From positions 1-24,660 of the IMG/VR virus record IMGVR_UViG_3300042516_000148: DNA of 24,660 bases. The stretch is one strand, 5' to 3'. The notes beneath the pieces were generated by a model that was not told the origin of the DNA, ran no database searches, and saw only the letters and a list, made by a program, of their open reading frames with translations. The translations under genes were made by a program, and so were the position numbers. Positions 15,803 through 24,660 of the stretch are shown piece after piece. The stretch is from a virus. The stretch's first letter is position 1. The number at the start of each line of letters is the position of its first letter.

Positions 15803-16303
15803 ATGGCCTTTCCTGCCCTTATCCCATCAGCCCGCGTCTACATCCCTGGTGATGTGCCGCAACAGCAGCAGGTGGCGCTATCTGGCGCTAACAGCGGCTA
15901 CCGGCAGGGCAATCGTCGCATTGGGCAGACCTTAGGGCTGAGTTTCAACAACATCACTGAGGCCGATCTCGATCTGATCAAGGCGCATTATCAAAGCGTT
16001 GATGGGACATTTGGCATCTTCTTTCTATCTGCTGAGGTATGGAACGGTTACGTAACGCCACCCGTCCCACTGCTCAGCGATTACGCATGGCGCTACGCGG
16101 GTCCGCCATCGATCACAGATGGATCGTGCGATCTGTGGAGCATTGAACTGGAGCTGACGACTTATGCCATTGATCTCAGCGACCTAATCATTGATGGTCT
16201 TACAGCTGCTGCGACGCCAGCCCGTGAGTATATTGTTGAAGGTGGTGCAGCATCCGCGACGCCAGCGCGTGACTATGTGATCAACTCAGGTGCAGCAGCA
16301 TGA
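15803..16303 (+). CDS. gpM-like minor tail protein, copy 2, with repeat tail
   Basis: Residues 1-125 are a diverged copy of the preceding protein, with the same order of motifs (GDVPQQQQV, SGYRQGNRRIGQ, LDLIKAHYQSVDGTFGIFFL, WRYAGPPSI). The extra C-terminal 40 residues contain two 15-residue repeats, ATPAREYIVEGGAAS and ATPARDYVINSGAAA, encoded by 21-base repeats 45 bases apart (16211-16231 and 16256-16276). This tail resembles a short flexible linker and may serve to attach the fibre whose gene follows. Two paralogues could form a heteromeric ring or adaptors for different appendages. The start is 3 bases after the previous stop and the end overlaps the fibre start. Confidence 0.55.
   Translation: MAFPALIPSARVYIPGDVPQQQQVALSGANSGYRQGNRRIGQTLGLSFNNITEADLDLIKAHYQSVDGTFGIFFLSAEVWNGYVTPPVPLLSDYAWRYAGPPSITDGSCDLWSIELELTTYAIDLSDLIIDGLTAAATPAREYIVEGGAASATPARDYVINSGAAA
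16211..16276 (+). repeat. Two in-frame 21-base repeats, period 45
   Basis: Copies at 16211-16231 and 16256-16276 match at 19 of 21 bases, both encoding ATPAR(E/D)Y in the C-terminal tail of the second gpM-like protein. Confidence 0.8.
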
Positions 16304-23380: not shown

Positions 23381-23698
23381 CTATTCGTTGCCGGGAAGTT
23401 GCTCCAATGCGCGGCGGATGATGTCAACGCCCTTAAAGCCTTCAAGTTCAGCAGCAGCAGCCAAAGCCTGCTCCTTCAAACTCGGCGGCTTGGAGCGGCG
23501 GGCGGCGCGGAGTGCATTGATGTAGTTGGTCGGCGTCTCGTCCGCCATCCATTCACAGCACGCCTTCAGCTCCTGATCTGCGCCCCATTGGGCGGAGCGG
23601 GTGGCGATGCGGCTGATCACATTTGGGCCGCCTTCGTCAGTATCAATCCACTCGCCAATCAGCTCATCTGACGGGGTGATGGGATGTTGTTGTGTCAT
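23381..23698 (-). CDS. WGADQEL-motif protein of unknown function, paralogue 1
   Basis: The 105-residue protein shares its plan with the gene at 23911-24264: HPITPSDELIGEW near the start, AQWGADQELKACCEWMADET (about residues 36-55), then LRAARRSKPPSLKEQALAAA and a helical end (GVDIIRRALEQLPGNE). It is predicted to be helical, soluble and cytoplasmic. I recall this family from picocyanobacteria and their phages, where it is uncharacterised. It starts at ATG 23698, 19 bases after the small membrane gene's stop, without a Shine-Dalgarno site, so translation may depend on coupling. Confidence 0.7.
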   Translation of the reverse strand: MTQQHPITPSDELIGEWIDTDEGGPNVISRIATRSAQWGADQELKACCEWMADETPTNYINALRAARRSKPPSLKEQALAAAAELEGFKGVDIIRRALEQLPGNE

Positions 23699-23722: not shown

Positions 23723-23918
23723 GTGGCTGACTGCGGTCGTCTCGCCAAGCCTCGACAATCACAGGCAACCCCTCTGCCATGAAGCCACGAATCGCGGAAA
23801 ATACAAGCAGAAAGGGCAGAGCAATCGGCACAGCTAAAAGAATGTAAAGCCTGCGCATGTAAACGTTACGCAGCCAGCGTCTATAGCTTGAGTTTGGCAA
23901 GAATACTGATTTAGGCAT
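23718..23918 (-). CDS. Small membrane protein between the two paralogues
   Basis: The 66-residue protein starts MPKSVFLPNSSYRRWLRNVY, followed by a membrane segment RLYILLAVPIALPFLLVFSA (about residues 22-41) and a polar tail ending RDDRSQPQ. Positive charges before the segment predict an inside N-terminus. ATG 23918 overlaps the preceding gene's stop by 8 bases (ATGCCTAA), a typical coupled arrangement. An upstream start at 23975 would lie inside the neighbour and is less likely. No family was recognised; it could be a membrane partner of the paralogous soluble proteins. Confidence 0.55.
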   Translation of the reverse strand: MPKSVFLPNSSYRRWLRNVYMRRLYILLAVPIALPFLLVFSAIRGFMAEGLPVIVEAWRDDRSQPQ

Positions 23919-24264
23919 CGAGCTTCTCCACGGCACGGCGAAGATCTTGCAGGATCTCAGGCAGGTAATACCCATCCCGCTCCATCACGTCTAAATGCTT
24001 CAGGGATTGCTCCTTCAGTGTTGCGGGTTTCGGGCGGCGGGCGGCGCGGAGTAGCTCAATCAGTAGCTCAGGATGCTCTAGTCCGTGCCAGGCAGAGATC
24101 CAGTTGATGCACGCCTCCAGCTCCTGGTCGGCGCCCCATTGGGCAGCCTGCTCTGCTATGTAGCTTTCGTAAAACCACGTATCTCCGTCGTACTCGGTGC
24201 GCTCCATCCACTGCCGCACCAGCTCCGGTGGTGGGGTTATCGGGTGCTTGTAATCTTGAGTCAT
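23911..24264 (-). CDS. WGADQEL-motif protein of unknown function, paralogue 2
   Basis: This 117-residue protein is a diverged copy of the gene at 23381-23698: HPITPPPELVRQWMERTEYD, AEQAAQWGADQELEACINWI (about residues 36-55), LIELLRAARRPKPATLKEQS, and a helical C-terminus. Conserved Trp, Asp, Gln and Arg positions suggest a protein-protein or nucleic-acid interface rather than an enzyme. ATG 24264 has a strong Shine-Dalgarno (GGAGG, 8 bases before) and heads the leftward operon. A promoter lies at 24326-24354. Paired retention with sequence divergence suggests different partners. Confidence 0.7.
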   Translation of the reverse strand: MTQDYKHPITPPPELVRQWMERTEYDGDTWFYESYIAEQAAQWGADQELEACINWISAWHGLEHPELLIELLRAARRPKPATLKEQSLKHLDVMERDGYYLPEILQDLRRAVEKLDA

Positions 24265-24289: not shown

Positions 24290-24320
24290 GGGGGCAGGGT
24301 GTTAGCGCACCGCTGTCCCC
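24290..24320. repeat. Long hairpin in the leader of the leftward operon
   Basis: GGGGGCAG and GGTG (24290-24301) pair with CACC, a bulged G (24312) and CTGTCCCC (24308-24320). This gives 12 pairs including one G/T, around loop TTAGCG. In the minus-strand RNA the G/T becomes an A/C mismatch, still a stable hairpin. It sits at the predicted 5' end of the operon transcript. Confidence 0.65.
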
Positions 24321-24325
24321 ACCAC

Positions 24326-24354
24326 CTTATACCACGCAACGCCCGCTGTGTCGT
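24326..24354 (-). promoter_or_regulatory. Promoter for the leftward operon
   Basis: On the minus strand, ACGACA (24354-24349) and TATAAG (24331-24326) are spaced by exactly 17 bases. The -10 matches the sigma-70 consensus at five of six positions and the -35 at four. The predicted start is about 24319, giving a leader of roughly 55 bases before ATG 24264. Confidence 0.55.
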
Positions 24355-24433
24355 TCAGGGGGCAACTGAACACTGATGCAGAGATTTCGTCACATCGCAG
24401 GACTGAGATCGACTGCGGTGGAACGGGTTTGAG

Positions 24434-24464
24434 GTATTGGCTCACTGCGCAAATTAGCCAATAC
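24434..24464. promoter_or_regulatory. 9-bp inverted repeat, operator-like
   Basis: GTATTGGCT (24434-24442) and AGCCAATAC (24456-24464) are perfect inverted copies separated by 13 bases. They end exactly where the -35 box at 24465 begins, so a dimeric regulator bound here could touch RNA polymerase. A cruciform or RNA hairpin is the alternative. Confidence 0.55.
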
Positions 24465-24493
24465 TTGCAAATAGATGGGCCACGCGCTACAGT
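24465..24493 (+). promoter_or_regulatory. Rightward sigma-70-like promoter
   Basis: TTGCAA (24465-24470) and TACAGT (24488-24493) are separated by 17 bases. The predicted start is near 24500. Confidence 0.5.
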
Positions 24494-24499
24494 TCTTCG

Positions 24500-24576
24500 G
24501 CTGATCAGAAAGCAGCAAAGCGGCTGGGGTGAGATCCAGTTGCAAGAGCGGCGGGGGTGACATCCTGCCGCTTTTT
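24500..24576 (+). ncRNA. Candidate small RNA of about 75 bases
   Basis: A promoter at 24465-24493 and an intrinsic terminator at 24547-24576 enclose about 75 bases with no credible reading frame. Inside, AGCGGCTGGGGTGAGATCC (24519-24537) is repeated as AGCGGCGGGGGTGACATCC (24547-24565), 17 of 19 bases alike. The second copy forms the 5' arm and loop of the terminator. A short CTGG/CCAG hairpin is also possible. This may be a regulatory RNA; only the signals are visible, not its expression. Confidence 0.45.
24547..24576 (+). terminator. Intrinsic terminator
   Basis: AGCGGC at 24547-24552 pairs with GCCGCT at 24567-24572, the stem continuing inward with G/T, G/C and G/C pairs, followed by five T (24572-24576). 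Confidence 0.75.
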
Positions 24577-24660
24577 AATGAGTGGCCCCCTGGTTTGTGC
24601 GTCATCCGGCGTCCCGGAGCTAGGCATATGGGGTGTTATTCGGGGAGACGTTAACGGACG

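Follow-up and report, generated by a model that had tools for sequence, protein, structure and literature searches.

Layout of the locus

The window, the whole 24,660-base stretch of DNA analyzed here, comprises an entire IMG/VR-type virus record and is probably a piece of a tailed-phage genome. Its plus strand carries, in order, small and large terminase genes, head and tail genes, an endolysin, a dCTP deaminase, and two HNH genes; a run of minus-strand genes follows. The closest named relatives are the Synechococcus phages S-CBS3 and S-CBS1 (large terminase 52% identical), and the window terminase was placed in PF05876 through its relation to S-CBS3. A 45-base direct repeat at 16209–16275 lies in a coding region (TPAREY/TPARDY units) before a tail-fibre-like gene. 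Two minus-strand genes of the family phrog_32006 (23381–23698 and 23911–24264) are adjacent to the unit that is the subject of this study. The nearer one (23911–24264, E value 2e-25) is divergent from the unit and lies outside it.

The unit begins with promoter signals and ends with a terminator. An operator-like dyad, GTATTGGCT-N13-AGCCAATAC, spans 24434–24464 with perfect 9-bp arms (24434–24442 and 24456–24464), and its last base directly precedes a weak -35-like hexamer, TTGCAA (24465–24470, plus strand, 4/6 matches). A 17-nt spacer separates this hexamer from TACAGT (24488–24493, plus strand), which is part of an extended -10 region, CGC-TACAGT (24485–24493). A small RNA of ~77 nt is predicted on the plus strand at 24499–24576, with its start deduced from the -10 hexamer. 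The predicted fold contains three hairpins in order: SL1 (24500–24516; GCUG-AUCAGAAAG-CAGC), SL2 (24520–24543; loop GUGAGA at 24529–24534), and SL3 (24544–24575; loop GUGACA at 24557–24562), the last of which is the intrinsic terminator stem and is followed by the T-run TTTTT (24572–24576). SL2 and SL3 contain the two copies of a direct repeat (24519–24537 and 24547–24565, 17 of 19 positions matching), so that the second copy lies inside the terminator stem. A preliminary description of the locus had listed the inverted repeat, the 17-base promoter spacing, and the direct repeat running into a terminator, and all three are present as described.

The direct repeat and the fold exceed chance. 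Elsewhere in the window, two copies matching at 17 of 19 positions within 60 nt are found just once, at the tandem repeat in coding sequence near 16209, and three shuffles contained none; the count of the two-copy motif with up to three mismatches was reached in none of 100 shuffles, and the fold energy of -39.5 kcal/mol corresponds to z = -4.6. Nine-bp inverted repeats taken alone were not beyond chance, with three in the window vs one to four per shuffle. A promoter and terminator scanner run on the window returned zero promoters and zero terminators. Both hexamers match at 4/6 positions, under the scanner threshold, and the terminator was probably missed because the T-run is partly paired in the extended stem. 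What raises the unit above chance is that it was found again in other phages.

A conserved unit in viral contigs

The unit at 24485–24576 was identified in 71 other viral contigs. A covariance model (R1), built from 30 distinct sequences, produced 79 matches with E values from 2e-24 to 2e-9; removal of six loci overlapping others on the same contigs left 73 places on 72 contigs, the window included. Contigs were de-duplicated by name, and some of these fragments are near-duplicates of one virus. The number of distinct aligned sequences is 45. Separate queries using the repeat, the terminator half, the promoter with the 5′ half, the 5′ pattern, a variant hairpin, and the promoter alone led to one and the same unit. 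The promoter plus six bases, with the body left unconstrained, was found in 55 contigs, and the same RNA followed in every non-redundant body listed.

Full-length copies of the window's class are 90%–99% identical to the window across the RNA block, and a second class is 76%–79% identical. Identity of the flanks on both sides is mostly 20%–40%, which is the level expected by chance, and the block boundaries fall at the promoter and the terminator. A T-run is present in 68 of 69 copies and TTTTT in 67. The preliminary description of a self-contained small-RNA gene thus holds, since promoter, RNA body, and terminator are conserved together in 72 contigs whose flanking sequences are unrelated. 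In 19 carrier contigs between 26 and 87 kb long, the unit is present exactly once, indicating that it behaves as a gene and not as a dispersed repeat; contig L082 has two copies. Two short open reading frames cross the unit (24348–24560 on the plus strand and 24390–24605 on the minus strand; 70 and 71 amino acids) and neither has a Pfam match. Both are broken by 1-nt length differences between relatives, and the unit is for this reason regarded as noncoding.

Carriers encode terminases of at least three families: PF05876 (L115), phrog_38 (L119 and L122), and phrog_2 (L130 and L182). In the 31-kb contig L115, which has a full-length PF05876 terminase, the RNA lies at 24784–24863, close to its position in the window. 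That phages whose terminases differ carry the block nearly unchanged suggests that it has moved between phages sharing picocyanobacterial hosts. No carrier was found among phage isolates at the sensitivity used, and the stretches from S-CBS2, S-H1, and S-CBS3 gave no match to model R1. An exact pattern search of GTDB genomes gave 51 matches in scattered phyla; seven of these are followed by a sequence resembling the terminator or the loop, and on inspection none of the seven proved to be the element.

Promoter and upstream elements

The conserved part of the promoter is an extended -10 element, TGC-TAnnnT. All 69 copies have TAnnnT (TACAGT in 66, TAGAGT in two, and TACAAT in one), and 68 have TGC directly before it; the window has CGC. 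The hexamers of the originally proposed promoter are both at their reported positions, but TTGCAA is not common to the relatives, whose sequence at the -35 position is unrelated to that of the window.

An operator had also been proposed for the inverted repeat. That repeat is within chance when considered alone, but 29 other copies have an equivalent dyad, GTATT-N21-AATAC, at the corresponding position (30 of 69 with the window). In these copies the dyad spans 31 nt, as in the window, and its end is separated from the start of the RNA by 32 nt (34 nt in the window). Elsewhere in the examined loci the pattern occurs a handful of times, about as often as expected by chance. Comparison among copies suggests that a regulator acting at the dyad probably controls the RNA promoter. 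The other main promoter class carries a different upstream element, GGGCAGG...CTGCCC, so that upstream control of the RNA is of at least two kinds.

Two further features of these upstream regions were recorded. A sequence at 24290–24325 of the window, GGGGGCAGGGTGTTAGCGCACCGCTGTCCCC, is located upstream of the phrog_32006 gene and resembles the element found directly before the RNA promoter in the other class; the window RNA is ~170 nt further from this type of element, behind the dyad. In L085 (6250–6310) and similar loci of the common promoter class, there are three related decamers, GCTGATTCCTG, CAGGTAATAC (inverted), and GCTGATACCTG, an arrangement reminiscent of a multi-site operator.

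Predicted structure and variants

Base pairing was evaluated using the 45 distinct sequences. Paired positions are compatible with pairing in 99.8% of cells, compared to only 39%–65% in slid controls, a result favored by an alignment fitted to the model's own structure. Changes on both sides of a pair were observed in 31 cells vs 10.7 expected from shuffles, and covariation in SL2 and SL3 was above all 500 shuffles and above the slid controls. The compensatory changes are confined to three pairs and probably trace to few events; one of them, a change from U-A to G-C in the SL2 stem, is found in 15 distinct sequences.

The loops are kept while the stems of SL2 and SL3 change. Of the 43 sequences with letters at the SL2 loop, 42 have the GUGA core and most read GUGANAU, and the SL3 loop has GUGANA in 39 of the 44 sequences with letters at that position. 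The two repeat copies of the preliminary description are present, and what is conserved in them is a pair of stem-loops with covarying stems and GUGANAU loops. SL1 has the loop CAGAAA and is kept in most copies; in the L071/L250 class it is shortened, and its sequence is not kept. The L071-type class also has no GGGG in SL2. A natural variant in L088 (6486–6536) is missing one repeat unit, leaving a single hairpin and the terminator, as recombination between the repeat copies would be expected to produce.

Search of cyanobacterial genomes

Model R1 was used to search 386 cyanobacterial genomes, and one genome (G363) produced a match by sequence and not merely by a GC-rich stem. Other low-scoring cyanobacterial matches (L198 excepted) were set aside, as the alignments listed match mainly through the GC-rich terminator stem. 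The G363 match consists of GCUGACAGAAAGCAGCA and, after it, a hairpin with a T tail and the loop GGUGAGAU, and the same arrangement was found in three more genomes of the family using a pattern that did not include the hairpin loop. A rough, after-the-fact estimate puts the chance of the 5′ stretch and the loop occurring jointly at ~1e-3. The corresponding loci (L207, L208, L210, and L218; 1499–1563) contain a candidate host RNA with three hairpins and the terminal loop GGUGANAU, and the genomes appear to be picocyanobacteria of the Cyanobiaceae.

The candidate host RNA resembles the phage RNA in its 5′ stretch GCUGACAGAAAGCAGCA, which agrees with the phage consensus, its T-tailed hairpin, and its loop GGUGANAU. 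It differs in having an unrelated middle hairpin, a single GUGANAU loop, and an upstream sequence that does not match the phage promoter. The phage RNA has its 5′ hairpin and terminal loop in common with four of these genomes but not its middle hairpin, and the wider host family detected with model R2 is variable in its 5′ hairpin as well as in its loop. From these sequence comparisons, we tentatively consider either kinship or mimicry between the two RNAs.

Interpretation of the RNA and its alternatives

The ~77-nt stretch is almost certainly a real small regulatory RNA gene, nearly unchanged in unrelated picocyanobacterial viruses. Taken as a whole, the evidence is best explained by an autonomous cyanophage gene for a trans-acting small RNA at 24485–24576, a reading that we regard as likely. 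Host RNA polymerase would start at the extended -10 promoter, near 24499, during infection, probably under the control of a regulator bound at the upstream dyad. The product would be a noncoding RNA of ~77 nt with three hairpins that ends at its own terminator, as comparative sequence evidence suggests. It would act in trans, and the twin GUGANAU loops and the CAGAAA loop of SL1 may bind a host RNA or an RNA-binding protein during infection.

Protein titration is a sub-case of this reading, and our confidence in the two overlaps for that reason. In this sub-case, which we consider less likely than not, the two GUGANAU loops would bind and sequester one host or phage RNA-binding protein in the manner of CsrB/RsmZ. 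The same loop displayed twice on covarying stems is typical of protein-binding repeats, but there are only two sites, one of them within the terminator stem, and L088 is a natural variant with a single hairpin. The window loop also has no CsrA-type GGA core, and the binding protein is hypothetical. Membership in the CsrB/RsmZ family itself was rejected, as the loops are GUGANAU and not multiple GGA loops; the mode of working may be similar.

A doubtful extension of the trans-acting reading is that the phage RNA imitates the host small RNA. By this account, a phage-exchanged RNA with the same 5′ hairpin and GUGANAU loop, and with the loop doubled, would outcompete or over-act its host counterpart.

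It is unlikely that the RNA works in cis, as an antisense RNA or insulator made against the minus-strand run with phrog_32006 that limits read-through or expression of its neighbors. Among isolated phages, phrog_32006 is found only in five Synechococcus phage records, S-CBS2 and S-H1 being carriers of the family. It is a large multicopy family in the phages studied here, and 87 distinct genes start with CCC ATC ACC CCA CCG CCG GAG CTG, a string in which the preferred codon differs at successive prolines; this suggests nucleotide-level constraint or frequent exchange. Its arrangement fits a cis role: across 51 loci, all 125 phrog_32006 open reading frames within 4 kb of the RNA are on the opposite strand, with a member ≤400 nt upstream in 24 loci and ≤900 nt downstream in 32, and the RNA end is often within ~20 nt of the end of the opposing gene. 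Strong conservation, on the other hand, is found in the RNA body, structure, and loops and not in overlap with any neighbor, and in some carriers the downstream gene is a tail-fibre gene.

Predicted pairing with the neighboring genes likewise gives no support to a cis role. The preliminary description had suggested that the repeat could be two antisense target sites, and UCACCCC in the phrog_32006 starts (..CCC ATC ACC CCA CCG CCG..) is indeed complementary to GGGGUGA. Pairing of GGGGUGA with this adjacent multigene family is nonetheless no better than random; antisense control of these genes is not supported, and the two target sites are putative. The longest pairing run to phrog_32006 starts was 8.8 vs 9.2 in random 90-nt stretches, duplex energies between the RNA and phrog_32006 gene starts were no better than for other gene starts (P = 0.89), and the complementary heptamer was equally common in non-carriers (39 of 51) and carriers (27 of 36). 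Loss of the SL2 GGGG from the L071-type class also disfavors antisense control of phrog_32006.

A conserved terminator or mobile mini-element with no regulatory product would account for the strong terminator hairpin, sharp boundaries, and unrelated flanks, but is very improbable: conservation of the promoter is as strict as that of the terminator, carrier contigs have a single copy each, loop conservation exceeds what a terminator needs, there is no T-run on the opposite strand, and the block ends at transcription signals.

Two other candidates were considered and rejected. A type III toxin-antitoxin RNA, which would have tandem repeats before a same-strand toxin gene, does not fit, as the two-repeat array ends in the terminator; in the neighborhoods examined, the same-strand open reading frame families that recur behind the RNA resemble shadows of genes on the opposite strand. 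Mimicry of a Shine-Dalgarno or 16S rRNA sequence (GGGGGUGA vs GGAGGUGA), judged by eye, is not supported as a selected feature because two additional bases interrupt the conserved loop (GUGA-NA-UCC) and the SL2 G-run is missing from one class.

Relation to known phage RNAs and significance

All 4,227 families of Rfam 15 were compared to the window, with no match at the gathering score and only chance miRNA-like matches in a permissive search. The open-access papers searched here contained no described RNA matching this one. RNAs named for cyanophages include CfrI, abiF, wcaG, manA, and glnA (PMC12197685, a review of phage small RNAs; PMC9964418, on S-CREM1). Trans-acting small RNAs encoded by phages include sar of P22, c4 of P1/P7, and AgvB of prophage Sp5 (PMC12197685). 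The window RNA is similarly a short structured phage RNA outside protein-coding genes; unlike those RNAs, it is nearly unchanged across terminase families, displays the same loop twice, and has no Rfam relation. CfrI of cyanophage S-PM2 is summarized as a ~225-nt cis-antisense RNA at psbA (Millard et al. 2010, via PMC12197685). As far as that summary goes, both are noncoding RNA genes of Synechococcus phages, but the RNA described here is ~77 nt and intergenic, has a separate conserved structure, and is found in a window without psbA. The wcaG, manA, PhotoRC-II, and glnA RNAs are cis-regulatory leaders of cyanophage genes (PMC2864571, PMC9964418). These are likewise structured RNAs of cyanophages and metagenomes, whereas the window RNA has its own promoter and terminator and no Rfam match.

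Cyanophage RNAs in the open-access papers covered here have so far been cis-antisense RNAs, gene leaders, and single database matches. The strict conservation of the RNA in 72 contigs, with terminases of at least three families, suggests that unrelated phages of the same hosts need its function. The RNA can be tested directly because of its small size, its clear boundaries, and its natural variants (two-hairpin, one-hairpin, and altered 5′ end). If imitation of the host RNA proves true, unrelated phages would be passing a common RNA tool among themselves like an auxiliary gene. The RNA would also offer a sequence handle on how phages and picocyanobacteria are linked through regulatory RNA.
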